DNA of 38,746 nucleotides from a virus. The DNA is taken from positions 1 through 38,746 of IMG/VR virus record IMGVR_UViG_3300025674_000125. One strand, given 5' to 3'. Both the position numbers and the translations under genes were made by a program. This document shows, piece after piece, positions 7,924-32,949 of the stretch. The stretch's first letter is position 1. Each line of letters starts with the position of its first letter. The notes under the pieces are model-generated. The model had not been told where the DNA came from. It searched no databases and saw only the letters and a list, made by a program, of their open reading frames with translations.

Positions 7924-8235
7924 ATGGCCGCCGTCGTGATACCCGTGGACGTGGGGGACGCCTACCGCCTCCGCCTGGACGTGGACCTCTCCGGGGTCTC
8001 CGTGACTCTCCGTCTCCAGTGGCGGGACGCCTCCTCCGGGTGGTACCTCTCCGCCGCCCTCCCGGACGGGACAAGCCTCCGAGACGGGGCGCGCCTGTGT
8101 ACCGGGGCGGAGGTCCCGCTGGATCTCACCGTGGCCGGCGCGCCCTCTCCGGGCCGCCTGTATTGCCTCGGATCGCTAGAACTCACACAGCGCGATCGTC
8201 TCGGGGTTACCTCGTTTCTCGCCTGGGTGGTCTGA
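7924..8235 (+). CDS. Baseplate plug-like protein
   Basis: 103 residues. Beta protein with YRLRLDVDLSGVSVTLRLQWRDASSGWYLSAALPDGTSL, then a Leu-rich strand and a C-terminal aromatic strand (TSFLAWVV). This matches the small 'baseplate plug' family found between the Dit-like and hub genes of DUF3383-sheath myoviruses. Its stop abuts the T-run of the 8236-8340 control cassette. The hub gene, normally next, has been displaced to 8847 by two inserted small genes. Confidence 0.6.
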   Translation: MAAVVIPVDVGDAYRLRLDVDLSGVSVTLRLQWRDASSGWYLSAALPDGTSLRDGARLCTGAEVPLDLTVAGAPSPGRLYCLGSLELTQRDRLGVTSFLAWVV

Positions 8236-8340
8236 TTTTTTTCGCGTATCTTGTTTTTCTGCTTGCGCGTTATCCAGGGGCGCCATAAGTGCTGTGTGTC
8301 GGGGGGGAGATGACCACCCCCCACGAGACAGGAGAGACAC
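8236..8340 (+). promoter_or_regulatory. Control cassette copy 1: T-run, TTGCGCGTTATC box, GACCA leader hairpin
   Basis: A T-run (8236-8242) directly follows the plug gene stop, but no strong terminator stem precedes it. The box TTGCGCGTTATC lies at 8263-8274; the -10 region is weak (TAAGTG/GTGCTG near 8286-8294). The leader hairpin pairs G-run 8301-8306 with C-run 8317-8322 and carries GACCA at 8312-8316 in the loop. The ribosome site GGAGAGACAC runs directly into ATG 8341. Same architecture as the copies at 23.4, 26.9, 27.6 and 28.0 kb. Confidence 0.7.
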
Positions 8341-17020: not shown

Positions 17021-18604
17021 CTACCAGCCAAGCCCGGAGAGGGCCTGCCAATATTCACCGTGATCCCGGACGGGTGCGGACTCCAGGCGATACCTGAGCG
17101 CCTGACACAGCGCGTCCGCCTCGTCGTCCACCTCCCCCCGCATATCCGGCCGATCCCCTCGGAGGCGGAGGAGGCGAGCGCGGAGGTCCAGGCCGTCCGC
17201 GTCGTGACCGTAACACCAGGAGACCGCGGCGCCGTGGCGCGCCTCGGGGAGCCGGACGCGGCCTAGCATCCACAGGCTCAGGGTCCCCTGGATCTGGTCA
17301 CGCTTAGACCCACGGCCGGACGTGGGGACCTCCTCCAGTTGGGGGAACATCGATCGGAGAGCAAGGACCGCCACGCGGCCGGACGACGCCCCCTCCACGA
17401 GGGCGCGCTGTGGCCGGTAGTCCTCCAGGACGGCGCGGAGACGGCGGATCACCCCTAGCTCATCCCACTGGCCGCGGTCCTGGTAGATCAGATCGTGACA
17501 CTCCCCGCGGATCGCGATCACCTGGATCGCCGTCCAGTCCCCGGCGCCCTCGGTCTGTGCGGAGTCCATCGAGACCCATAGCTCCGAGGCGGACGCGCGG
17601 ACGTGATCGGGGTGGTCCGGGTAGGTATGAGAGAGGGCCTCCGGGGGGAAAAGACCACCCACGGCGTCCACGTCCTCACCGTCCAGGAGGGGGGCCGCCC
17701 ACCGTCCGAGGATGACCCGCTGAGCGGCCTCTTTCGCCTCCGTCCACCCGGGGGTGAGGTAGCCCCGGGGACCGTATCGCCACGGCTCGGGACCGCGGAG
17801 GGGATAGCTGTGGCGCGCGATCTCCATGGTGAGCCCCGCCGCCTCCACCTCCTCCCGTTTACGGATCCAGAACCCCTTGGAGTCCGTGGCCCCGCGGCGC
17901 GTCCCAATATCCCAGATCTCCCCGCCGCGATCGGCCACGCGTCCGAGGGCGGAGGAGAGGAGGAGGTCCTCCACCTGGCGGACGTTGGCCGGGGACTGTG
18001 CGTCTCCGATCGTCTTGTAGAGATCGTCCGCGATCACCACGTCCAGGGGGAGACCCTCCAGGCCGCCGCGTCGTCCGGTGGATGCGAAACGAACCGGGGG
18101 CCGATCCGCCACCGGGTGAGGGACGGTCCACCGCGTGGCCGCGTCCGACTGATCACGCCGCGCGCCCTCGTGGCCGGGACCGTCCGGGACGCGGAGGTGG
18201 GGCCACGTGGCCACCGCCGCCGGGGACCGCATGAGGCGCCGCATATCCCGCCCCCACTCCCGGGCGAATTCCTCATTATACGCGAGGACCCCCACGGATA
18301 GCCCGGACGCGAGCGCCATAGCCGCGGCACGCTTGACGATCTCCGACTTGCCCGATTGCTGGGGGGCGTCGATCAAGAGGATCCGCACGGCGCCCCCGTG
18401 GCCGCCGTCCACGAGTCGCCCGATCGACCCCTGGAGGATCCGGCCTATGTGACCTTGCCACCCGTGGGGGACCATGGCCCCGCGGAGAGTGTGAGGTCCT
18501 TGTCGGCACCACTCCACGACGTCCGCGCGCGCGCGGGCCGCACGGATCCGCCGCGCCCTCTCAGCCTTGACGGCCTCTCTCAGAATGTGATCCGGGATCG
18601 ACAT
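17021..18604 (-). CDS. terL: Terminase large subunit
   Basis: 527 residues. ATPase domain: Walker A APQQSGKSE (residues 80-88), Walker B DVVIADD (D193 D194), a coupling region around GTRRG (235-239). Nuclease domain (RNase H fold): D347 in SMDSAQ, E404 in VEGAS, and an acidic cluster D493-D497 in VDDEADAL. This motor cuts and pumps DNA into the prohead. It is the only large gene on the minus strand and lies far from the probable small terminase (30082) and portal. A -10-like TAACGT sits exactly 6 nt before the ATG, with no clear Shine-Dalgarno. Confidence 0.9.
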   Translation of the reverse strand: MSIPDHILREAVKAERARRIRAARARADVVEWCRQGPHTLRGAMVPHGWQGHIGRILQGSIGRLVDGGHGGAVRILLIDAPQQSGKSEIVKRAAAMALASGLSVGVLAYNEEFAREWGRDMRRLMRSPAAVATWPHLRVPDGPGHEGARRDQSDAATRWTVPHPVADRPPVRFASTGRRGGLEGLPLDVVIADDLYKTIGDAQSPANVRQVEDLLLSSALGRVADRGGEIWDIGTRRGATDSKGFWIRKREEVEAAGLTMEIARHSYPLRGPEPWRYGPRGYLTPGWTEAKEAAQRVILGRWAAPLLDGEDVDAVGGLFPPEALSHTYPDHPDHVRASASELWVSMDSAQTEGAGDWTAIQVIAIRGECHDLIYQDRGQWDELGVIRRLRAVLEDYRPQRALVEGASSGRVAVLALRSMFPQLEEVPTSGRGSKRDQIQGTLSLWMLGRVRLPEARHGAAVSWCYGHDADGLDLRARLLRLRGDRPDMRGEVDDEADALCQALRYRLESAPVRDHGEYWQALSGLGW

Positions 18605-21557: not shown

Positions 21558-23332
21558 CCGCCGCCGCCACGCCGGACCTGTGGAGCGGGTCCCAGTGGCC
21601 CCCGCGGAGGTGTCAGGACGAGGGGGTCCGGGCCGCCCTGGCTCACGCCGGATCGCCACTGATCGACAGCTGCACCGGCTCCGGCAAATCTATGATGATC
21701 TCCGAGCTTGCATGGTACCACCGGGAGACCATGCAACCGCGGGACGTGGTGATCGTGATGACCTCCCGCCAAGACCTCGTGGCGTCCCTCTCCGAGTCCG
21801 CGCGCCACCGCCTCGGGGATGACGTGGGCGTCTGGTACGGGCGCCGGAAACAGTGGGGGCGCGTCGTGTTCTCCTGCTACCAGTCCCTCCCCGCCGTGGC
21901 GGACGAGGTGGCCGCCCGCGGGTACCGCGTGGCCCTCCTCATATGCGACGAGGCCCACCGCCTCACGACGCCGGCCCGGTGGGGGGAGGTCCAGCGGCTA
22001 GACCCGATCAAGCGGATCGCCCTCACGGCTACCGCCTACACGGGACAGGGGGAGCCGATCCCGGGGTGGTCTATCTGCTACAGCTACCGCGTGATCGACG
22101 CGATCCGGGATGGCGTCCTAGTCCGCCCTGAGCCCCGCCCGTGGACCGGCGCGGACGGGGAGGGGATCAACACGGCCGCCCTGGACATGATCCTCCGGGA
22201 CGCGCCCCCCGGCCCCGGGGTGGTCTCCGCGGACTCGATCACGGACGCCACGTGGTACGCTCAGATCCTCACCGCTCACGGGATACCGGCCCTGGACTAC
22301 CACAGCCGGATCACGCCGCGGGAGAGACGGCGCCGCCTGGACGCCCTGGCCACCGGGGAGATCCGCGCCCTCGTCCACCCGCGGATCATGACGGAGGGCG
22401 TGGACGTCCCGTGTCTCCGGTGGCTGTGTCTCCGCGTCCAGCGGAACCTCCGGGATCTCGTCCAGGAGGTGGGCCGGGGGATCCGGTCCCTCTCCGAGCC
22501 GGACGCGTGGGGGACCAAGGATCGCTGTGTCGTCCTGGACCCACGCCACCAACTCCCCCACGTGGAGCGGATCGACCCGGACGGCCGGACGGTCCACGAG
22601 GGCCACGACGTGGAGGCGATCCTCCGCGCCCTGGAGGGCCACGAGGACCCGGACGGGGAGACGGAGACCCCGGCGGAGAGGAAGGAGCGGGAGGCCCTGG
22701 AGAGGGCGGAGGACACGGTGAGGCGCGTCTCAGACGTGTCCGCGTGGTGTACGATCGCCCGGGACCGGCTCGCGATCGCCGGGTGGATACCGCCCGGAGA
22801 GGTTACGGGGTGGGGCGATCGGTGGCTCCTCCGGGAGCCCACGGCGCGACAGCGGGACGCCCTGGACAAGCGGCGCCGGACGCTGAGGTGGTTCCCCCCG
22901 GAGTACCGGGACGCGATCCGCGTGGCCCTGGACCACCCGGACCACCTCACCCGGGGAGGCGCCCGGGATCTCCTCTCGGTCCTGATCGCCGTCTCCAGGC
23001 GCGCCGGTATGCACGCCTCCGGGGGTGGCGATCAGGCCCTCGGGGTGGCCAACGATCTCACCCGCCGCCACGGGTGGACGGCCACGCGCGGGGACATCCT
23101 GGAGACCCTCGGGAGGGGGTGGGACATCACGCCCCGGGACCTGGCCGACACGTGGCTCAGCCGGGACTGGATACGCGCGGAGGACCTCGGATCGGGGCGG
23201 GTGACATTCACCCCCGCCGCCCTGGAGGCCGTCCAGGCGCGGAGGGCCGCCGGGCCGCGGGTCCTCTGGACGTGGACGTGGCCCCCGGAGGTGGAGCTAC
23301 CGCCGCCGCCCGGGGACGACGGGGAGGAGTGA
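21554..23332 (+). CDS. Superfamily 2 DNA helicase (DEAH)
   Basis: 592 residues, GTG overlap with the methyltransferase. Motif I TGSGKS (about residues 41-46), motif II CDEAHR (about 131-136), motif III LTATA (about 158) and motif VI QEVGRGIRS (about 302-310) in two RecA-like domains, as in the UvsW/Res-type DEAD/DEAH family. After residue ~390 come charged helical regions ending in a Pro-rich acidic tail. Likely recombination-dependent replication or fork remodelling. The neighbouring methyltransferase invites a restriction-system reading, but no nuclease domain is seen. Confidence 0.82.
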   Translation: MTAAATPDLWSGSQWPPRRCQDEGVRAALAHAGSPLIDSCTGSGKSMMISELAWYHRETMQPRDVVIVMTSRQDLVASLSESARHRLGDDVGVWYGRRKQWGRVVFSCYQSLPAVADEVAARGYRVALLICDEAHRLTTPARWGEVQRLDPIKRIALTATAYTGQGEPIPGWSICYSYRVIDAIRDGVLVRPEPRPWTGADGEGINTAALDMILRDAPPGPGVVSADSITDATWYAQILTAHGIPALDYHSRITPRERRRRLDALATGEIRALVHPRIMTEGVDVPCLRWLCLRVQRNLRDLVQEVGRGIRSLSEPDAWGTKDRCVVLDPRHQLPHVERIDPDGRTVHEGHDVEAILRALEGHEDPDGETETPAERKEREALERAEDTVRRVSDVSAWCTIARDRLAIAGWIPPGEVTGWGDRWLLREPTARQRDALDKRRRTLRWFPPEYRDAIRVALDHPDHLTRGGARDLLSVLIAVSRRAGMHASGGGDQALGVANDLTRRHGWTATRGDILETLGRGWDITPRDLADTWLSRDWIRAEDLGSGRVTFTPAALEAVQARRAAGPRVLWTWTWPPEVELPPPPGDDGEE

Positions 23333-23367
23333 GGATCCCGTGGTGGTGGGGATCCTTGGATTTTTTT
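23333..23367 (+). terminator. Intrinsic terminator (cassette copy 2)
   Basis: GGATCCC (23333-23339) pairs with GGGATCC (23349-23355), followed a few bases later by TTTTTTT (23361-23367). It begins immediately after the helicase TGA and closes the DNA-metabolism operon. Confidence 0.8.
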
Positions 23368-23463
23368 CGCTTAAATGTGGCCTGTATTGTTGCGCCTTAT
23401 CTGACAGCACCTTAAAGGTATTTTGTCGGGGGGAGAGACCAGCCGCCCGCAAGGAGAGACACG
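23368..23463 (+). promoter_or_regulatory. Control cassette copy 2: TTGCGCCTTATC box and GACCA leader hairpin
   Basis: Box at 23390-23401 (one change from the consensus). The -10 is diverged (AGGTAT at the conserved spacing, or TATTTT slightly downstream). The leader hairpin pairs CGGGGGG (23427-23433) with CCGCCCG (23443-23449), one G-G mismatch; GACCA (23437-23441) is in the loop. Ribosome site AAGGAGAGACACG precedes ATG 23464. Confidence 0.65.
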
Positions 23464-23856
23464 ATGACCAAGCCAACCAACAGCCCGAACCCAAACATCC
23501 GACGCAACGCACAGGCCGCGAGCCAAGCAGTCCTCAACAAGAACCGCCGCGGAGAGTGGCTCACCTCCGCCGCCGCGGAGGCTGTGGCCAACAAGTACGG
23601 CCGGGATTGCTCCCTCATGTTCAACGTCGCAAGCAGCAAGCAACACGAGCGAGCATACGGGGAGGCCGCCCTCCTGATCGCTGCAATCATCCGGTGCATC
23701 CGTGACTATTACCTCCCCACGGGTGAGGCGATCAATGGGAAGTTCATGCACGTGGAGACGCTGGCTCGACTCAACTTCCAACTCCTCGCCCAGTACGGCC
23801 GGGATCCCATGATGTACGCCGTTTGGAGCGAGGCCACGCAGGCCGACTGGACCTGA
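23464..23856 (+). CDS. Unknown protein under cassette control
   Basis: 130 residues. Not recognised. The N-terminus is Asn/Gln-rich and basic (TKPTNSPNPNIRRNAQAASQAVLNKNRRGEW), unlike the Ala/Glu-rich style of most proteins here, and its codons are less GC-biased. A helical core follows (TSAAAEAVANKYG, YGEAALLIAAIIRCIRDYYL, METLARLNFQLLAQYG). It could be a DNA- or RNA-binding early protein. It has its own terminator-promoter cassette and shares a leader hairpin type with the next gene. Confidence 0.65.
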   Translation: MTKPTNSPNPNIRRNAQAASQAVLNKNRRGEWLTSAAAEAVANKYGRDCSLMFNVASSKQHERAYGEAALLIAAIIRCIRDYYLPTGEAINGKFMHVETLARLNFQLLAQYGRDPMMYAVWSEATQADWT

Positions 23857-23861
23857 TACCG

Positions 23862-23900
23862 GCCCCCTCCGGGGGGCGTCTACCGGCCCCCACGGGGGCC
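23862..23900 (+). promoter_or_regulatory. Two intercistronic hairpins before a GGAGAGACACC site
   Basis: GCCCCC/GGGGGC (23862-23877) and GGCCCCC-AC-GGGGGCC (23885-23900), then AAGGAGAGACACC and ATG 23920. The second hairpin and the following TCACAC(A/G)AGGAGAGACAC are repeated at 27253-27268, with a shorter version at 28168-28181. There is no T-run, so these look like processing, stability or translation elements rather than terminators. Confidence 0.55.
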
Positions 23901-23919
23901 TCACACAAGGAGAGACACC

Positions 23920-24129
23920 ATGATCAAGACCGAGAACGCGCCGCGCGAATTGTCGATGTCCGCAAAGGTGCGCCGAGAATTCGTCGCGGAGGAGCTAGAG
24001 ACCGTCCAGGCGGAGATCACATTCCTAGCCGCGGACGCGGAGACCTGGACTCAGGAGGACCTGTTCCGCCTGTGCCACCGAATGAGGGCCGCCGCGGACG
24101 CGTGCCTCGTGGCCGCCTACACCTCGTGA
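23920..24129 (+). CDS. Small acidic helical unknown protein
   Basis: 69 residues with a good AAGGAGAGACACC site. Mostly helical (SMSAKVRREFVAEELETVQAEITFLAADAETW, EDLFRLCHRMRAAADACLVAAY), a likely coiled-coil hairpin. Not recognised. Its stop overlaps the GTG of the primase-like gene, linking it to replication genes. Confidence 0.6.
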   Translation: MIKTENAPRELSMSAKVRREFVAEELETVQAEITFLAADAETWTQEDLFRLCHRMRAAADACLVAAYTS

Positions 24130-24812
24130 GGGACGGCCTAGACCGCCTCCGCGCCCTCACCCCGGCGGAGGCTCTACAGCGCGCCGGGGCGGCGGAGAGG
24201 GGGCGCGGACGGTGGGGGCCGTGTCCAGCCTGTGGCGACGATCGGAGGCGGGGCGCGGTCCTCGTCTCCGCGCGTGCCTGGACGTGTCAGGTATGCCACG
24301 CCTCCGGGGACGCGATCGCCACCGCGGCGATCATGGCCACGGGGGACCGCCGCGCGCGAGGGGACTGGGGCGCCGTGGTCACGTGGGCGGAGGTCCACGG
24401 GTGGATCACGGACGACGGGATCGCCGTCCCGCCGCCGCCGCCGGTGGAGACGGTCCACGGGATCCTCCCGGACTACCCGGACGGGGTGGCCACGGAGTCC
24501 ACGGCGTGGCGCCGCCACCTCCGAGACACGGACGCGCCTGTGGTGGCCTCTCTGGCCTCTCTCGCGGTGGCCGCCGGCTACCCGGACGCGGAGGCCGTCC
24601 ACGAGGCCCGGAGCTACCACGAGGCCCGGGAGGCGTCCGTGGCGCGCGATCGCGCGGAGGCGTCCAGGTTGGCACGGGACGCGCGCGCCTGGAGGGCCGC
24701 CGGGGCGGAGGAGGTGGCCCGGGTCCTGGCCGCCACGGCCTGGAGGCTGTGGATTCGATCGGCCACGGTCTCCGAGACTAGACAGCGCCCCCGCCGCGCG
24801 TGGTATCGGTAG
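24126..24812 (+). CDS. Primase-type zinc-ribbon protein
   Basis: 228 residues from GTG 24126 (GTGA overlap). The N-terminus GRWGPCPACGDDRRRGAV...WTCQVCHASGDAI holds C33, C36, C54 and C57 in the CHC2-like primase zinc-binding layout, including the GD after the last ligand. A PPPPP linker follows at about residue 100. The C-terminal region is a long Arg/Glu/Ala helix. No Toprim or polymerase catalytic motifs are visible, so it likely supplies template recognition to a primase whose helicase partner is the DUF927-like gene next door. Confidence 0.7.
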   Translation: MRDGLDRLRALTPAEALQRAGAAERGRGRWGPCPACGDDRRRGAVLVSARAWTCQVCHASGDAIATAAIMATGDRRARGDWGAVVTWAEVHGWITDDGIAVPPPPPVETVHGILPDYPDGVATESTAWRRHLRDTDAPVVASLASLAVAAGYPDAEAVHEARSYHEAREASVARDRAEASRLARDARAWRAAGAEEVARVLAATAWRLWIRSATVSETRQRPRRAWYR

Positions 24813-24878: not shown

Positions 24879-26855
24879 ATGCCGAGTGACCAAGCCCGAC
24901 CCGGATCCCGTACCACAGCCACGGATACGGATCAAGCCCTACTAGCTCTCCGCGCCCTCGTGGAGTGTGCCACGCATCACCCGGACAAGGTGGACGCGTG
25001 GCGCGATTGGTTGGACCGGATCCCCCTCGGGGACGGCGCGGCCCTCGTGGGCGTCCGTGAGGTGGACGTCCTCTTGGAGCGCCTGGCCTCCGTGCCTGGA
25101 TACGCCTCCAGGGCCGCCGCCGCGCGTCGGATTCTTCGGAGCTACCACGAGACGGGGCCGCGGATCCGCGTCGTCCAGGGGGGCGCTGAGGCGCCCTCCG
25201 TGTCCCTCTCGGAGAGGATGGTCTCCGAGGGCTACCACGACGCCCCGGACGGCCTCGTGGTCCCGGACGGCTACCGCCTCCAGGAGGGGGAGATCGTCCG
25301 CGTGACCTCCGAGGACCGGGAGGACGTGACGGTCTCCGAGCGCCCGATCGCGATCGTGGGACGCGCCACGGACGCGGAGACCGGGGAGGCGTCCGTCTCC
25401 GTGGCGTGGCGATACGAGGGCCGGTGGATCGCGGAGACAGTGAGCCGGTACACCGTGGCGGACGCGCGCGCCCTCGTGGCCCTCTCACGCCGTGGGGCGC
25501 CGGTGGACTCCACCACCGCCTCCGAGGTGGTCCGGTGGCTCAGGCGACAAGAGAGCGCCGCTCACGGCCTCCCCTCCGTGGCGTCCATGGAGCGCCTGGG
25601 ATGGACCCCGGACGGGACCGGGTACCTGTGGGGGACCACCTCGATCGGGCGCCCCGTCCACCTCGTGGCGCCGGGTGAGGGGGAGCGATCCCGGGCGGAG
25701 GGGTACCGCGCGCGCGGGACCCTGGAGGGATGGATCCGGGACGTGTGGACGCCATCCCGGGATCAGCCGGCCGGCCTCGTGATCCTGGCCGCCGTGACGG
25801 CGCCGCTTGTCCACGTCCTGGACGGCCCCGGGTGGACGCTGGACATCGGAGGCCCACCGGGGACGGGGAAGTCCGCCGCCCTCAAGGCCGCCCTCTCCGC
25901 GTGTGGAGACCCGGCGCCGCTGTGGCACCTGTGGGGGCCGAATTGGGCCGGGGTCCGTAACGCGCTGCAATTCGCCCACAGCGTCCCGTGTGTCCTGGAC
26001 GATACCAAGCACACGGCCGGGGACTGGAGTGTGGTCCAGCGGGTGGTTTATACGGCCTACGATCGCGCGTCTCAGGCCCTCGGACAGGTGGGCGGCGGGA
26101 CCCAGCGCGCGCGCCCCGTGAGGACGATCGTCCTCTCCACGGGTGAGAGCCGGATCGCGTCCCACTGTGCGGACGCCGGGGGCGCCGCGTCTCGTATGCT
26201 CACCCTGGACCGGGCGCCGTGGGCGGACATCGAGATCGCGCCGCGGATCCACGACGCGGTACAGGAGCACCACGGCCACCTCCTCCCCCTCGTGGTCCGG
26301 TGGCTACTGGACCACCGGGACGAATGGACGGATCTGAGGACCCAGTGGCGGGAGGTCCACCGGGCGCGGACGATGGGGGAGAGACGGGCGGACGTGATCC
26401 GCGTGGCTCAGCTTCCCGCCATGCTGGAGATCGCGGCCTCCGTGGTACGGCGCGCCGCGGCCCTGGAGGTCCCCCGGGGCCTCCTCGATCTAGCCTGGAC
26501 CCTGGCCACCGCGGCGGAGGCTGAGCGGGACACGGCGGCTACCGCGTGGCGCTGTGTGGAGCAATACCGCGCCACGAGGCCGGACAGGTGGGCGGGGGTC
26601 TCGGACGCCCGGACGCCCTACCTCGGACTCCAGGCCGCGGCCGTGGTGTACTGGACCCGGGAGGGGCTAGACGAGGCCCTCCGATCCGGGGGCTACTCCG
26701 CGGCGGACGTCCTCTCGATGTGGGGTGAGCGCGGGTGGCTGGAGGCCGCCACCTCCGGGGGGTACCAGGTGAGACGGAAGATCGGAACCACCCGCGCCTG
26801 GGTCTATGGTCTCCGCCGGGACCGCGGGCCGGACGCGGAGGGGGACGCGGACTGA
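24879..26855 (+). CDS. DUF927-type primase-helicase ATPase
   Basis: 658 residues. ATG 24879 has CAGGAG 10 nt upstream. A beta-rich region (residues ~130-290, with ISVAWRYEGRWIAETVSRY-like strands and LGWTPDGTGYLWGT) matches the DUF927 fold. The ATPase follows: Walker A GPPGTGKS (about 325-332), Walker B CVLDDT (about 371-376), then STGESRIASHC and an arginine-rich region. C-terminal helical winged domain (TSGGYQVRRKIGTTRAWVYGL). With the zinc-ribbon protein upstream it is the best candidate for the replicative helicase loader or primase-helicase. Confidence 0.78.
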   Translation: MPSDQARPGSRTTATDTDQALLALRALVECATHHPDKVDAWRDWLDRIPLGDGAALVGVREVDVLLERLASVPGYASRAAAARRILRSYHETGPRIRVVQGGAEAPSVSLSERMVSEGYHDAPDGLVVPDGYRLQEGEIVRVTSEDREDVTVSERPIAIVGRATDAETGEASVSVAWRYEGRWIAETVSRYTVADARALVALSRRGAPVDSTTASEVVRWLRRQESAAHGLPSVASMERLGWTPDGTGYLWGTTSIGRPVHLVAPGEGERSRAEGYRARGTLEGWIRDVWTPSRDQPAGLVILAAVTAPLVHVLDGPGWTLDIGGPPGTGKSAALKAALSACGDPAPLWHLWGPNWAGVRNALQFAHSVPCVLDDTKHTAGDWSVVQRVVYTAYDRASQALGQVGGGTQRARPVRTIVLSTGESRIASHCADAGGAASRMLTLDRAPWADIEIAPRIHDAVQEHHGHLLPLVVRWLLDHRDEWTDLRTQWREVHRARTMGERRADVIRVAQLPAMLEIAASVVRRAAALEVPRGLLDLAWTLATAAEAERDTAATAWRCVEQYRATRPDRWAGVSDARTPYLGLQAAAVVYWTREGLDEALRSGGYSAADVLSMWGERGWLEAATSGGYQVRRKIGTTRAWVYGLRRDRGPDAEGDAD

Positions 26856-26865
26856 GCGACCCGCC

Positions 26866-26902
26866 ACGATCCCCGCGCCGTGGGGATCGTCGGATTTATT
26901 TT
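26866..26902 (+). terminator. Intrinsic terminator (cassette copy 3)
   Basis: ACGATCCCC (26866-26874) pairs perfectly with GGGGATCGT (26882-26890), followed by a T-rich tract TTTATTTT (26895-26902). It closes the primase-helicase operon. Confidence 0.8.
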
Positions 26903-26997
26903 CGCGTTATGTTGCTTTTATTGTTGCGCGTTATCTCTAGCCGTGTTCTTATGCTTTCACCGGAGGGACGGACCACCCGCCGGAAGGGAGAGAGAAC
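26903..26997 (+). promoter_or_regulatory. Control cassette copy 3: TTGCGCGTTATC box, TATGCT, GACCA leader hairpin
   Basis: Box at 26924-26935; TATGCT at 26950-26955, 26 nt from the start of the box. Leader hairpin: CCGG-A-GGG (26960-26967) with CCC-G-CCGG (26976-26983), seven pairs flanking an A-G mismatch; the loop ends in GACCA (26971-26975). The ribosome site GGGAGAGAGAAC precedes ATG 26998. Confidence 0.7.
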
Positions 26998-27546: not shown

Positions 27547-27585
27547 CCCACGATCCCCACCACGGCGGGATCGTGGGTTTTTTTT
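27547..27585 (+). terminator. Intrinsic terminator (cassette copy 4)
   Basis: CCCACGATCCC (27547-27557) pairs perfectly over 11 bp with GGGATCGTGGG (27567-27577), followed by eight T (27578-27585). The strongest terminator in the window. Its core ACGATCCC is shared with copy 3. Confidence 0.88.
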
Positions 27586-27682
27586 GCGTCCGTGTTGCTT
27601 TTATTGTTGCGCGTTATCTCTAGCAGTGTGAATATACTTTCACCGGGGGGACGGACCAACCCCCGACGAAAGGAGAGACACC
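27586..27682 (+). promoter_or_regulatory. Control cassette copy 4: TTGCGCGTTATC box, TATACT, GACCA leader hairpin
   Basis: Box at 27607-27618, preceded by TTGCTTTTATTG as in copy 3; TATACT at 27633-27638 (26 nt from the box start). Leader hairpin: CGGGGG (27644-27649) with CCCCCG (27660-27665), with GACCA at 27654-27658. Ribosome site AAAGGAGAGACACC before ATG 27683. This is the best-conserved copy with copy 5. Confidence 0.75.
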
Positions 27683-27931: not shown

Positions 27932-27957
27932 CCGCCCCCTCGGGGCGGTTTTTTTTT
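27932..27957 (+). terminator. Intrinsic terminator (cassette copy 5)
   Basis: CCGCCCC (27932-27938), loop CTC, GGGGCGG (27942-27948), then nine T (27949-27957). The stem differs in sequence from copies 2-4, while the downstream promoter part is nearly identical to copy 4. Confidence 0.85.
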
Positions 27958-28054
27958 GCGTCCGTGTCGTTTTCTACTTGCGCGTTATCTCACAATGTGC
28001 CAATATACTTTCACCGGGGGGCGGGATTGACCACCCGCCTCGGGAGATGACACC
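27958..28054 (+). promoter_or_regulatory. Control cassette copy 5: TTGCGCGTTATC box, TATACT, GACCA leader hairpin
   Basis: Box at 27978-27989; TATACT at 28004-28009, again 26 nt from the box start; then TTTCACCGGGGGG as in copy 4. The leader hairpin pairs GCGGG (28021-28025) with CCCGC (28034-28038) plus outer pairs, with GACCA at 28029-28033. The ribosome site GGGAGATGACACC before ATG 28055 is less conserved than in the other copies. Confidence 0.72.
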
Positions 28055-28378: not shown

Positions 28379-28728
28379 GCCGCCGCCGCGCCCCCGCGTG
28401 CCTCGTGTGCCACGCGGAGACGGGCCTGGAGACGATCACGGACTACCCGGACGGGTGGCGGGGCCTCCGGTCCTACGTGTGCAGCCGCGGCCCCACGGAG
28501 TGGACGACGTGCCAGCTAGTCCTCCTCCGCCGGGAGACCATGGCTGAGCGCCGCGCCCTCCAGGACGCGGACGCGCGCCTGGCTGAGATCGTAGCAGAGG
28601 ACGCCGCGCGCCTGGACGGGATCGTGGCGGAGGGCGCCGCCCACCTAGCCGCGATCGTGGCCGAGTCCGAGGAGAGCACGGAGGCCCGCCGCCCTCGTGG
28701 CAAGTCGCGCGCGCCTCGGGGGCGGTAG
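28375..28728 (+). CDS. Zinc-finger protein with a triple 11-residue repeat
   Basis: 117 residues, GTG start overlapping the previous stop. N-terminal C9-x2-C12 and later C36 and C46 suggest a small zinc-binding domain (CLVCHAETG... YVCSRGPTEWTTCQL). Residues 69-101 are three consecutive undecads: LAEIVAEDAAR, LDGIVAEGAAH, LAAIVAESEES. This pattern forms a right-handed coiled coil, so the protein probably multimerises. The C-terminus is basic (RRPRGKSRAPRGR). Not recognised; a nucleic-acid-binding adaptor is possible. Its last 84 bases overlap a minus-strand frame. Confidence 0.6.
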   Translation: MSRRRAPACLVCHAETGLETITDYPDGWRGLRSYVCSRGPTEWTTCQLVLLRRETMAERRALQDADARLAEIVAEDAARLDGIVAEGAAHLAAIVAESEESTEARRPRGKSRAPRGR

Positions 28729-28869
28729 GTCCTCCCGGGTGAGGAGGGCCTCCACGCGTGCCAAACGACGCCGCGCGCGGGGTTCCCATCCCGGGACGTG
28801 GTGATCGATCGTCTCCAGGATCTCCGCCGCTAGTCCGAGCACGTCCACCGCCACCTCCAGGGCGGACAC
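28645..28869 (-). CDS. Possible small minus-strand protein
   Basis: 74 residues from GTG at 28869: VSALEVAVDVLGLAAEILET, IDHHVPGWEPRARRRLARVEALLTRED, LPPPRRARLATRAAGLRALLGLGHDRG. Helical, plausible composition and codon choice, and the only sensible frame between 28729 and 28869. It overlaps the end of the plus-strand zinc-finger gene tail to tail and has no clear ribosome site. It would be transcribed away from the origin region. Could be a chance frame. Confidence 0.4.
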   Translation of the reverse strand: MSALEVAVDVLGLAAEILETIDHHVPGWEPRARRRLARVEALLTREDLPPPRRARLATRAAGLRALLGLGHDRG

Positions 28870-28987
28870 GGTACCACGTCCACGCGCGCCCTGTGGCCCC
28901 TCTGACGACGCGGAGGGGGTCCCCGGGTGTCGTGACACCCCCGCGGGCCACGCGCCGCCGTGGGGGCCTCCAGGGCCTCCGTGGGGG

Positions 28988-29017
28988 CTTGGACGCACTT
29001 GGACGCACTTGGACGCG
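28988..29017 (+). repeat. Iteron block A: three tandem CTTGGACGC(A/G) decamers
   Basis: Copies of CTTGGACGC begin at 28988, 28998 and 29008: exactly 10-bp spacing, one helical turn, so bound proteins would lie on the same face. Confidence 0.85.
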
Positions 29018-29039
29018 GGAAAAGATAGGATCTACCGTA
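29017..29039 (+). repeat. Second origin element, copy 1 (GGAAAAG-TAGGATC-CGTA)
   Basis: The 23-mer at 29017-29039 matches 29244-29266 at 18 positions, sharing GGAAAAG, TAGGATC and CGTA. Further TAGGATC boxes occur at 29070-29076 and, inverted, at 29286-29292. Confidence 0.6.
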
Positions 29040-29054
29040 GCCCCGGACGTGGTG

Positions 29055-29097
29055 TCTAAATCTATCTTTTAGGATCTAAGGTAAGAATTAAAAGAAA
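29055..29097. other. AT-rich patch in the origin region
   Basis: A run of mostly A/T including TCTATCTTTTAGGATCTAA and AATTAAAAGAAAG, lying between oppositely oriented iteron blocks A and B. Such composition is very rare in this genome. It is a candidate DNA-unwinding element. Confidence 0.6.
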
Positions 29098-29190
29098 GTC
29101 CAAGCGTGTCCAAGTGGTGTCCAAGTGGTGTCCAAGTGATAAACCAGGGATCCCCCTACACTTTCTCCCAGGTGTCCAAATTGTCCAAGT
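29098..29190 (-). repeat. Iteron block B: six inverted copies (GTCCAAGT on plus)
   Basis: GTCCAAGC at 29098 and GTCCAAGT at 29108, 29119, 29130 and 29183, plus GTCCAAAT at 29174. Spacing is 9-11 bp within clusters. Orientation is opposite to blocks A and C. Confidence 0.85.
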
Positions 29191-29243
29191 GTTTCAGGAG
29201 AGACCCACGAAATCCGGGAGGCCGCGGCGGGGGGGGTCTACGC

Positions 29244-29266
29244 CGGAAAAGCTAGGATCGTTCGTA
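29244..29266 (+). repeat. Second origin element, copy 2
   Basis: Matches 29017-29039 at 18 of 23 positions; lies between iteron blocks B and C and is followed by a run of C. Confidence 0.6.
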
Positions 29267-29312
29267 CCCCCCCCCCGGAGACTCAGATCCTATGGGTATA
29301 TCTCAGGAAAAC

Positions 29313-29403
29313 ACTTGGACACTTGGACACTTTGACGATAGCGCCGGGAGGACGCCGACAACGCGCGCCCAACACCACTTGGACACCTCGGATTCACTTG
29401 GAC
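29313..29403 (+). repeat. Iteron block C: ACTTGGAC copies
   Basis: ACTTGGAC at 29313, 29321, 29377 and 29396, plus ACTTTGAC at 29329. The first three are tandem at 8-bp spacing, unlike the 10-11 bp spacing of blocks A and B. Confidence 0.85.
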
Positions 29404-29426
29404 ACCCCCCGCGGCGGGTGAGCATG

Positions 29427-29435
29427 TGCTAACTA
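29427..29435 (+). promoter_or_regulatory. Extended -10 TGC-TAACTA before the RuvC-like gene
   Basis: TGC-TAACTA at 29427-29435 matches the promoters at 15076 and 18655. A start about 29442 would give a very short leader that begins just before the GGAGAGGAGC ribosome site. No -35 is evident at 17 nt, where GC-rich iteron-flank sequence lies. Confidence 0.45.
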
Positions 29436-29452
29436 GAGCAGAGGAGAGGAGC

Positions 29453-30085
29453 ATGACCACGCCGCGAATACTGATCGGAATCGACCCAGGACACGACGCC
29501 GCCGCCGCCGTGGCCCTCCTGGACACGGGGGATCCCGTCCTCCAGGTCCTGGCCGTTTCGAGCTACCGGAGGACACAGCGGGCCAAGGTCCGCGGGTGGA
29601 CGGTGGAGACGTGGACTGCACAGGATCAGGTGGCCGTCCCTGGCGTGTGGTATAGCGTCGCCGAGCAAGCCGCCACCGGCCTAGTGGCCTGTGTCCGATA
29701 CGTGGGCAGGATGCACCCAGAGACCCCCGTGGTGGCCGTGACGGTGGAGGGCGCCCGATGGGGTGGGGGAGAGGGCCGGCGCCGGACGGCGGCCTCTATC
29801 GCGTCCCTCGCCACGTCCAGGGGGCGGATCCTCCAGGCCCTCCACGCCGCCGGCTACCCGGCCACGTCCGAGCCCGTGGCGGCGGAGTGGCGCCCCCGGG
29901 TCCTCCGGGTCTCCGGGGCCTCCTCGGGGGAGGCGTCCAAGCACGCCGCGATCGCCTGGGTCACGGGCCGCCGCGTCCTCCGCCGGGACGTCCCGGACTG
30001 GAGGGTGGCGTGGCCGGAAGCGTTGACCTGTCAAGACCACGAGGCGGAGGCCGCGTGTCTCGCTGTGTGGGGGAGGCCCGCGTGA
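29453..30085 (+). CDS. RuvC-like Holliday junction resolvase
   Basis: 210 residues; ATG 29453 follows GAGGAGAGGAGC. RNase H fold: first strand with the catalytic Asp, ILIGIDPGHDAAAAVAL (D10), a second acidic residue in VTVEGARWG (E about residue 98) and the C-terminal ECQDHEAEAACLAVWG-like helix (CQDHEAEAACLAVWGRP) carrying the last acidic/His residues. It would resolve branched DNA before packaging. First gene right of the origin. Confidence 0.75.
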   Translation: MTTPRILIGIDPGHDAAAAVALLDTGDPVLQVLAVSSYRRTQRAKVRGWTVETWTAQDQVAVPGVWYSVAEQAATGLVACVRYVGRMHPETPVVAVTVEGARWGGGEGRRRTAASIASLATSRGRILQALHAAGYPATSEPVAAEWRPRVLRVSGASSGEASKHAAIAWVTGRRVLRRDVPDWRVAWPEALTCQDHEAEAACLAVWGRPA

Positions 30086-30531
30086 CCCGTCCTTTACGGT
30101 CCCCGTGTGGCCGCCTCCTGGAGGACCGGGAGGCGGAATTGGTCCGTATGCGGTCCAAGGGCTACACGTGGAGCATGATCGGGGACCACCTCGGAGTCAC
30201 GAGACAGCGGGCCTATCAGATCGGCAATAAGCCCCACGTAAAGGCGACGATCCAGGACTTCGCACGGGACCACCTGGAGGCCGCGCGGACGCGACTATCC
30301 GAGGGCTACTGGGTGGCAGTGGACGCCATGATCGAGATCGCGAGCGACAAGGACCACCCTCAGCGCCTGGCCGCCGCGCGCCACCTCGTCCAGGCCGTGG
30401 ACGGGATCCGGGCGGAGGTGGTGATCTCGGACGTGGAGGCACGCCACCGCGCCGCCGCGATCGCCGCGTCCCTCTCGGACGAGGACCTCCAGATCGCGGA
30501 GGCCGCCCCCCTCACCCTGGAGGGGGAGTAG
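30082..30531 (+). CDS. Probable terminase small subunit
   Basis: 149 residues, GTG overlap. N-terminal helix-turn-helix (YTWSMIGDHLGVTRQRAYQIGN) that would bind the packaging site. A helical centre YWVAVDAMIEIASDKDHPQRLAAARHLVQAVDG resembles the oligomerisation region of TerS proteins ('...A...L.e.a...d...rl.AA..lld..g'), and the C-terminus is acidic (DEDLQIAEAAPLTLEGE), as expected for the part that docks on the motor. It lies upstream of the portal, though terL is far away. A general HTH regulator is the alternative. Confidence 0.6.
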   Translation: MTRPLRSPCGRLLEDREAELVRMRSKGYTWSMIGDHLGVTRQRAYQIGNKPHVKATIQDFARDHLEAARTRLSEGYWVAVDAMIEIASDKDHPQRLAAARHLVQAVDGIRAEVVISDVEARHRAAAIAASLSDEDLQIAEAAPLTLEGE

Positions 30532-30596
30532 TTGCGCGCGCTACCGTTGCGCGTTAATGCCTTGCATGTATGCAAACGACCCAAGGAGATCGACCC
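30532..30596 (+). promoter_or_regulatory. Promoter/operator with TTGCGCGTTA box and TTGCAT-GT-ATGCAA palindrome
   Basis: TTGCGCGCG (30532-30540) and TTGCGCGTTA (30547-30556) resemble the box of the control cassettes. The palindrome TTGCAT-GT-ATGCAA (30562-30575) overlaps the expected -10 (TATGCA). It is placed to be an operator for the winged-helix protein of the gene it precedes. AAGGAG follows 9 nt before ATG 30597. No GACCA hairpin is present. Confidence 0.55.
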
Positions 30597-30854
30597 ATGC
30601 CACGCGGACGCAGCCCCCTCACGATAGCTCAGATCATGGCCGGGATTGACCCCGATCGCCCCGTGACCGCGGACGGCCTAGCCGCCGCCGCCGGTACCTC
30701 CAGGCGCACGGCTCAATATCGGATCCGCCGCCTCCGGGCGGAGGGTCTACTCTCCCCCGTGGACGGGGAGACCACCGGCCCGCGTGGTCAAGGCGTCCGC
30801 GCGGAGTATACTCTCACCGACACGGGACGCGCGGCCCTGGCCGCCGCCCCCTAG
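30597..30854 (+). CDS. Winged-helix transcription regulator
   Basis: 85 residues; ATG 30597 is preferred over ATG 30570, which lies inside the operator palindrome, because AAGGAG precedes it. Helix-turn-helix: VTADGLAAAAGTSRRTAQYRIRRLRAEGLLSPVDG, with the wing ETTGPRGQGVRAEYTLTDTGRAAL. Resembles MarR/PadR-type or replication-initiator wHTH domains. Probably autoregulates through the palindrome at 30562. May control the packaging/head operon downstream. Confidence 0.65.
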   Translation: MPRGRSPLTIAQIMAGIDPDRPVTADGLAAAAGTSRRTAQYRIRRLRAEGLLSPVDGETTGPRGQGVRAEYTLTDTGRAALAAAP

Positions 30855-30867
30855 ACCCGGCGGCCCC

Positions 30868-32949
30868 ATGCCCACGATCCGCGATCGCGTCCTCTCATGG
30901 TTAGACCTCACCCCACCCCCGGAGACCCCGCCGGACGAGTCCCGCGCGGACTCCGTGATCCAGTCCTCCGCCATGGGGTTCGGGATGGCCGGGAAGGACC
31001 GCGTGGACGAGGTGACGCCTAAAAGCGGGCTCAGGTGGTGGTCACAGGCTCAGCTTGTCCATAGCTACATGAGAGGAGGGATCGCCCGACGACTGGCGAT
31101 CGCGCCACCCATGGACGCGATCCGCCACGGGTACACCGTGACCACGGACACGGAGGAGGAGGAGACGGTCCCGCGCGCCCTCCACGTCCGCCGCGCCGCC
31201 CTCCAGGCCCGACAGTACGCCCGGGCGTTCCGGGGCGCCCTCGTCTACGTGAGGGTAGACGGCGATCAGTCCGCCCCCCTCGGAGACGGCCCCCACGAGG
31301 TCCGAGCCCTCCACGTGATCATGCCCTCCGAGGCCACCCCCTCCGCCCTCTCACGACAGGCGGACGTGGATCGGCCGGACTGGACGGCCCCCGAATTCTG
31401 GGACCTCCACCCGACGCGGCCGGGTCTCACCTTCAGCGGGGAGCGCCGGGTCCACGCGTCCCGCGTGATCGTCGTCCCGGGCTTGGACGTCCCGCTGGAC
31501 GTGACGCCGCCTGATGACGGATTCCAGGCCGCGGTCCTGGACGTGTACTGGGAGAGTCTCCGAAATCTTGAGGTGGTGACATCCTCCACCACGTCCCTCA
31601 TGTCCGAGCGATCGGTGGCCGTCTATGAGCAGGACGGGAACGGCGCCGCCTCCGGGCGTGACGGCGTGTCCTGGCTGGACCGCCTCCGCGCCCTCCGCCG
31701 GGCTACCTCGGTCCTCGGGGCGATCACCCTCCCGCCGGGGTGGAAGGTCTCCCGGACGGACGCGACGATCACCGGGTGGCGAGACGCCAAGGTCTCCGCG
31801 TATGAGGACGTGGCCAGCGTGGAGGGGATCCCCCCCGCGGTGGCGATCGGTACGCCGCCGGCCGGGATGACCTCGGACGATCAAGCCTCACGCCGGACGT
31901 ACCACCGCCTCCTGGACGGACAGGAGCGGCCGATCCTGGAGGACGTGATCCTCCGGGTCCACGAGATCGTCCACGGCCTAGACGAGTCCCGCCGCATGAT
32001 CTGGCCCGCCCTGGAGGAGCCCACCGCCGTGGAGCGCGCTCAGATCTCCGCCACCCTGGCCCAACGGGACGCGGCCCTCTACGCCGCCCAGATCGTGGAG
32101 CGTGACGAAATCCGGGGCCGCCACCTCGGGGACCGGGAGATCGAATACCTCCAGATCGATCCGACCCTGGACGACGCCGCGGACGCGATCGAGGTGGACC
32201 CGGGAGAGGACACGGCCGCCACCCTGGAGGAGATCCTCCGCGCGGACGCGGAGACGTACCGCCCCCCGGAGTCCGCCCGCAACAACGCCCGCCGCGTCCT
32301 CAAGTGGCGGGAGGAGCACGGGGACGAGGTGGCCGGGATGACCCGCGTAGGATGGACCCGCGCGCGTCAGCTAGCCGAGGGCCGCCCCCTCTCCCGGGAG
32401 ACGGTGGGAAGAATGGCGGCATTTGAGCGCCACCGCAAGAATTCCGAGGTGGCGCCGGAATACAAAGACACCCCCTGGAGGGACGCCGGCCGCGTGGCGT
32501 GGCTTGGATGGGGCGGGGACTCCGGGGTGGCGTGGGCCGCCCGGATCGTGGCCCGCGGGGACGCGGAGGACAAGAGCACGCCGGCCAAGCCCTCCGAGCG
32601 GATCAAGGGCTCACGGACCAACCCGCGCGGGACGGCCTCCGGGTCTCGTGGCGGGATCGAGGTCTCCGAGGAGACTGAGGCCGCCCTCCGGTCCAAGGTG
32701 GACGAACACAACGACGGCGCCACCGAGGGCCGCCGGGTGGATCTGGGTATGCTTAAAGCCGTCTACCGCCGCGGGGCCGGGGCGTTCTCCACCTCTCACC
32801 GCCCCGGGATGACCCGTAACCAGTGGAGCATGGGGCGCGTTAACGCTTTCTTGCACCTCGTGAGGACGGGGAAGCCTCAAGACGCGGACTACACCGGGGA
32901 CAACGACCTCTTACCCAAGGACCACCCCCGATCCACCCGGGAGGGGTAG
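30868..32949 (+). CDS. Portal protein with two C-terminal extra domains (DUF1073-like)
   Basis: 693 residues. Residues ~20-430 read as a DUF1073-type portal: GIARRLAIAPPMDAIRHGYTVT, LQARQYARAFRGALVYVRVDGD, a long stem helix around ISVEGIPPAVAIGTPPAGMTS, DQASRRTYHRLLDGQER. Two phage-associated modules follow: ~463-565 (ARRVLKWREEHG... ARQLAEGRPLSRETVGRM, LGWGGDSGVAWA), seen in prohead and protease proteins, and ~594-690 (TEAALRSKVDEHND, LKAVYRRGAGAFSTSHRPGMTR, VNAFLHLV), another common phage module. A 12-subunit ring would carry twelve copies. No clear ribosome site precedes ATG 30868. Confidence 0.78.
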   Translation: MPTIRDRVLSWLDLTPPPETPPDESRADSVIQSSAMGFGMAGKDRVDEVTPKSGLRWWSQAQLVHSYMRGGIARRLAIAPPMDAIRHGYTVTTDTEEEETVPRALHVRRAALQARQYARAFRGALVYVRVDGDQSAPLGDGPHEVRALHVIMPSEATPSALSRQADVDRPDWTAPEFWDLHPTRPGLTFSGERRVHASRVIVVPGLDVPLDVTPPDDGFQAAVLDVYWESLRNLEVVTSSTTSLMSERSVAVYEQDGNGAASGRDGVSWLDRLRALRRATSVLGAITLPPGWKVSRTDATITGWRDAKVSAYEDVASVEGIPPAVAIGTPPAGMTSDDQASRRTYHRLLDGQERPILEDVILRVHEIVHGLDESRRMIWPALEEPTAVERAQISATLAQRDAALYAAQIVERDEIRGRHLGDREIEYLQIDPTLDDAADAIEVDPGEDTAATLEEILRADAETYRPPESARNNARRVLKWREEHGDEVAGMTRVGWTRARQLAEGRPLSRETVGRMAAFERHRKNSEVAPEYKDTPWRDAGRVAWLGWGGDSGVAWAARIVARGDAEDKSTPAKPSERIKGSRTNPRGTASGSRGGIEVSEETEAALRSKVDEHNDGATEGRRVDLGMLKAVYRRGAGAFSTSHRPGMTRNQWSMGRVNAFLHLVRTGKPQDADYTGDNDLLPKDHPRSTREG

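Follow-up and report, generated by a model that had tools for sequence, protein, structure and literature searches.

The SaPI/PICI origin comprises an AT-rich region between two sets of iterons, and a segment holding rep and ori replicates a plasmid (PMC6092414). SaPI Rep recognises this iteron origin, which lies downstream, through its C-terminal domain and apparently as two hexamers; SaPIbov1 Rep and Cch are related DUF927 helicases, and in Cch2 the C-terminal domain binds direct repeats downstream of its own gene (PMC7581432). A 2018 paper regarded this layout as unique to phage-inducible islands.

Here, we describe an array of the octamer ACTTGGAC in a 38.7 kb virus record of 70% GC (the whole stretch, referred to below as the window), which is most likely an origin of the SaPI/PICI design housed in a GC-rich tailed phage. 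As in the Rep-ori systems of SaPIbov1, PT1028 and the E. coli PICIs, a DUF927 helicase with a C-terminal winged helix is encoded upstream of short iterons arranged in opposed sets, and the three-gap geometry is common to both (36/89/35 bp in the SaPI cluster L133, 36/122/40 bp in the window). The differences lie in the genomic context (a tailed-phage genome of 70% GC with portal, tape measure, baseplate, terminase and lysin genes) and in the array itself, which is placed 2.1 kb from rep, contains an extra block (A) and has its outer blocks flipped. PICI satellites are defined as helper parasites without virion genes, a definition that does not cover the window, since it encodes portal, head morphogenesis, tape measure, baseplate wedge, terminase and amidase proteins. 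SCCmec Cch is a DUF927 helicase like the window's Rep, whereas Cch2, a member of a different helicase family, is accompanied by just three iterons (AAGTG) and resides in a chromosome cassette rather than a phage.

Closer in lifestyle are the tailed phages THSA-485A (Thermoanaerobacterium) and FP_Epona (Faecalibacterium), in which an array of the same geometry, without annotation in their records, directly follows a DUF927 primase-helicase gene; they differ in that their Rep is primase-fused and only 21-23% identical to that of the window, their repeats are others and the centre is AT-rich. The geometry is also found in the DUF927 plasmids pSJEF4-2-2 of Geobacillus and pFP4 of Streptomyces (repeats TGTCACAA and AGTTACCC), the former having its left outer block oriented as the inner pair, as in the window, and the latter a similarly GC-rich centre (53-55% GC in the GC-rich Streptomyces DUF927 plasmids of this layout).

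The array, its surroundings and its relatives

The initial annotation had claimed about 14 octamer copies in three blocks of alternating orientation. Ten exact copies of ACTTGGAC were counted, all within 28997-29403 and none elsewhere in the window (0.54 expected per whole 38.7 kb window; 0 of 100 shuffles gave ten), and allowing at most one mismatch brought the region to 14 (the 10 exact copies and four one-base variants), far above chance. The orientations were as described, but the copies fall into five sub-blocks, A (3, +), B (4, -), B2 (2, -), C (3, +) and C' (2, +), B having been merged with B2 and C with C' in the earlier count.

Table 1. Features of the proposed origin, its helicase and the adjoining resolvase gene (window positions)
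Feature	Position	Strand	Description
Rep, DUF927 AAA+ (MCM-like) helicase, proposed initiator	24879-26855	+	PF06048, E 6e-22
Rep C-terminal winged helix, residues 583-646	26625-26816	+	Predicted structure: helices 594-603 and 608-618, wing strands 630-646
Block A	28987-29014	+	Iterons at 28987, 28997, 29007 (GCTTGGAC, ACTTGGAC, ACTTGGAC); 10-bp period; addition to the usual class architecture
Second repeat, TAGGATC	29026, 29070, 29253, 29286-29292	+, +, +, -	Four sites inside the proposed origin
Least stable 40-bp stretch in the window	29057-29096		5.8 sd above the mean by nearest-neighbour stability; inside the A-B spacer
Block B	29098-29137	-	Iterons at 29098, 29108, 29119, 29130; 10-11 bp period, gaps 2-3 bp; left outer block in class register
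Block B2	29174-29190	-	Iterons at 29174, 29183; 9-bp period, 1-bp gap; 36 bp from B; left inner pair in class register
Central spacer B2-C	29191-29312		122 bp, 61% GC; class counterpart is the AT-rich centre between inner pairs
Block C	29313-29336	+	Iterons at 29313, 29321, 29329, head to tail, 8-bp period; third is ACTTTGAC; right inner block in class register
Block C'	29377-29403	+	Iterons at 29377, 29396; 19-bp period, 11-bp gap; 40 bp from C; right outer block in class register
RuvC-like Holliday junction resolvase	29453-30085	+	phrog_1770, E 2.5e-8; directly downstream of the proposed origin

The array lies in a gap (28729-29452) that, in keeping with the claim of a gene-free region, contains no conserved gene, and in which no sigma-70-type promoter or terminator was recognised and no tRNA or Rfam RNA was found. 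The AT-rich patch reported between A and B was likewise confirmed: this spacer (29015-29097) has 41% GC in a 70% GC genome and includes the least stable DNA of the window, most likely the melting element, at a position that is also AT-rich in the relative G002 (contig 3300040810_001033, helicase 86% identical); the segment 29277-29316 ranks third in low stability. GC skew, put forward as a check in the initial annotation, gave no clear switch and is uninformative for this genome. A candidate hairpin in the central spacer (29228-29277) was rejected, its stability not exceeding that of shuffled sequences (z -1.1 in the window and +0.4 in G002).

In G002 the array occupies the same place beside RuvC with its orientation and key spacings kept; the recurrence next to this gene in a related phage, to which the initial annotation had pointed, was thus found. 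At the position of block A the copies ACTTGGCC and ACTTGGAC are kept, the three exact copies of B are unchanged, and C' is identical. The B-B2 spacer measures 36 bp in both (the B2 copies of G002 being degenerate), and the B2-C spacer keeps its length (122 bp against 121 bp in G002) even where part of it is only 35-45% identical. Within 28980-29420, repeat positions are 85% and the rest 70% identical, and when the repeat mask was shifted circularly, 25 of 439 placements reached this repeat-position identity; conservation peaks in the stretch that runs from B through B2 to slightly past it. In 3300040807_003040, the closest relative (97% identical helicase), a contig break in this region hides the array.

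No match to 28400-30600 was obtained by DNA-level search among phage records, and a triple-octamer scan of all viral contigs recovered the same array only in G002, most other hits being unrelated coding or low-complexity repeats (e.g., ACTTGGACTTGGAC). Among the loci compared, the window's Rep is encoded only by its two close relatives, and since the other loci lack it the family cannot be recognised by the octamer alone. Non-coding tandem arrays of ACTTGGAC were seen in the viral contigs L036 (e.g., ACTTGGACACG x5), L041, L042, L045, L047 and L057, with no match to the window's helicase in the sequence available for each; they are perhaps other origins or operators.

Several further features of the two genomes were recorded. 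All four second-repeat sites are altered in G002 with loss of GATC (AGGTTC/AGGTTCTA or AGAATC versions), which contrasts with the abundance of GATC elsewhere in both genomes (591 observed against 107 expected from composition in the window, a 5.5-fold excess; 497 against 109 in G002). CGATCG is also abundant in the window (102 against 13), and TGCA is depleted (29 against 107). AT-rich modules dispersed at 23330-23448, 26864-26982, 27548-27665, 27936-28036 and about 8193-8300 consist of a GATCCCC...GGGGATC hairpin with a T-run and then TTGCGCGTTATCTC...ATACTTTCACCGGGGGG, and look like terminators with a phage promoter immediately after. Upstream of rep, the ORF at 23823-24812 (+) bears a CPAC...CQVC motif that by eye resembles a CHC2-type primase zinc finger; it had no Pfam match, and in the Geobacillus plasmid a protein annotated as CHC2 is encoded at the equivalent site. 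The large terminase gene (17021-18604, -) is the only large conserved minus-strand gene found and is divergent from the replication genes. The portal (30784-32949) carries a C-terminal extension (DUF5824, residues about 490-720) with relatives 36-74% identical in many unrelated viruses, including those of Salinibacter and Halorubrum.

A helicase class with a fixed array geometry

We collected 80 viral loci encoding such helicases, which form 44 clusters at 80% identity; in 42 of these clusters there is an array in which a single 8-mer occurs five times or more, and in 36 the richest 400-bp window of the ~11 kb locus starts at the helicase stop codon. The gap that first follows the helicase gene contains 9-10 short-repeat copies in THSA-485A, FP_Epona and the SaPI-like PT1028, each with a repeat sequence of its own, while phiRg507T2_3 and Jekyll have a weaker array signal there; the repeats of other class members are also quite different from that of the window. 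A shared geometry (outer block, gap, inner pair, gap, inverted inner pair, gap, outer block) was recognised in 38 of the 44 clusters, the window included, and in none of 25 control viral loci, with acceptance ranges that were fixed after about 28 maps had been inspected. The median gaps are 40/94/40 bp (ranges 30-54, 78-125 and 34-59), inner-pair copies are usually 0-1 bp apart, and the inner pairs are oppositely oriented in 38 of 38 clusters, an alternation that is consistent with two helicase assemblies placed face to face with a melting region between them. The window's gaps (36/122/40 bp for B-B2-C-C') are inside the class ranges, and its opposed sets are spaced accordingly. This comparison strongly supports the earlier proposal of an iteron-type origin.

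The window departs from the class in three respects. Its array starts 2.13 kb past the rep stop, behind small ORFs, unlike the 36 clusters with the array at the stop; arrays displaced from the helicase also occur in L081, L091, L107, L129 and G002. On both sides its outer blocks point the same way as the inner ones, which is seen in no other of the 38 (the outer block is opposite to the inner in 36 of 38 on the left and 34 of 38 on the right), and we call the origin a variant because outer-block orientation is not required by published definitions. Finally, it has the extra block A. The DNA between its opposed sets is 61% GC, the most AT-rich stretch being that between A and B; this is probably not a strong objection, considering the 53-55% GC centres of the GC-rich Streptomyces plasmids.

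The helicase and its proposed reading of the repeats

The sequence of Rep matched SaPIbov1 Rep (PDB 8tch, E 1.7e-19) and SCCmec Cch (5dgk, E 1.8e-11), and a Foldseek search with its AlphaFold2 model (mean pLDDT 78.9) returned the same two as the only strong matches (E 1.1e-24 and 7e-20, respectively). HTH_56 was matched in 25 of 28 helicase family members and was sub-threshold in the window's Rep (23.3 bits against the Pfam cut-off of 26.2). From the predicted fold, we propose residues 583-646 as the iteron-binding domain.

Covariation within the class points the same way. Where helicases >80% identical have different iterons, their pairwise identity is 74% over the last 80 residues and 91% elsewhere (lower in 38 of 38 pairs), and in same-iteron pairs the values are 94% and 95%, figures that come from non-independent pairs and from a gene whose 3' end can travel with neighbouring DNA. 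The helicases of L150 and L151, for instance, are 95.7% identical overall and 62% over the last 40 residues, and their repeats are AGTTCCCG and AGTCCCCA. Such divergence is to be expected if the C-terminus reads the iterons; for the closest C-terminal relatives (L075, L074 and L076), comparison did not settle the strand correspondence of the repeats. The iteron binder is thus likely the C-terminal winged helix of the DUF927 helicase, which displaces the small proteins put forward in the initial annotation (wHTH 19810, wHTH 30570 and HTH 30082).

Those same three proteins underlie the strongest alternative, in which the array is an operator through which one of them controls the downstream RuvC-portal operon. 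The array does lie between two co-directional gene sets, and all three proteins are encoded nearby; yet the search for a promoter or terminator came out empty, the geometry tracks the DUF927-helicase class instead of these regulators, and wHTH 19810 is only 56% identical between the window and G002 over 131 residues with the repeats unchanged. We regard pure operator function as improbable, while a dual role, as origin and as a site of control by Rep, may exist. Opening of the origin by host DnaA or another host initiator is more doubtful still: in a sequence comparison GTGTCCAAG shares TGTCCA with the high-GC DnaA box TTGTCCACA, but the copies read CCAAG and not CCACA in both the window and G002, an initiator helicase of SaPI type is provided by the phage itself, and class members elsewhere have quite different repeats. 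Least credible of all is a partition or packaging site (a parS, cos or pac-like array), for although centromere-like and packaging sites are also marked by clustered short repeats, no ParA/ParB-like gene was seen among the proteins scanned (part of the ORFs), the array is not adjacent to the terminase gene, and its geometry goes with the DUF927 helicase.

We therefore hold it very probable that the array is the phage's replication origin, with Rep as its initiator. By analogy with the SaPI and Cch literature, from which the binding, melting and ring steps are drawn, the C-terminal winged helix of Rep would bind the ACTTGGAC iterons, and the oppositely oriented copies on either side would load two helicase rings facing each other; AT-rich DNA beside or between the blocks (29057-29096, possibly also 29277-29316) would then melt, and the rings would unwind outwards in both directions. 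Iteron plasmids (RK2, R6K) and lambda O origins also place several initiator-bound direct repeats beside AT-rich DNA, but their initiators recruit the host helicase, whereas the initiator proposed here is the helicase itself. The resolvase gene directly follows the proposed origin, and nuclease/resolvase genes are also found downstream in THSA-485A and FP_Epona.

Because block A is extra, the A-B spacer is the least stable DNA and 29277-29316 ranks third, two registers are possible: B-B2-C-C', as in the class, or one in which A and B take the role of inner pairs on either side of the AT-rich spacer (cf. Jekyll and phiRg507T2_3). The array may combine both.

The presence of the layout in tailed phages and plasmids contradicts its supposed uniqueness to phage-inducible islands. 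The kind of origin is already known; its presence in tailed phages and its fixed geometry appear to be new in the literature searched (which included few subscription papers). We consider it probable that the SaPI/PICI-type origin is a general phage/plasmid replicon with a fixed ~40/95/40 bp spacing, whose iterons change their code in step with the helicase's C-terminal winged helix, that satellites may have taken from tailed phages, and of which this phage has an extended version, in which a fifth, AT-flanked block is added. Its occurrence in tailed phages and plasmids alters the question of where the satellite replicons came from. Moreover, nature supplies dozens of helicase-iteron pairs, some of them with nearly identical helicases but different repeats, from which one could work out and test a recognition code, and for self-loading helicases of the DUF927 type the constant spacing yields a prediction of the placement of two rings on DNA.
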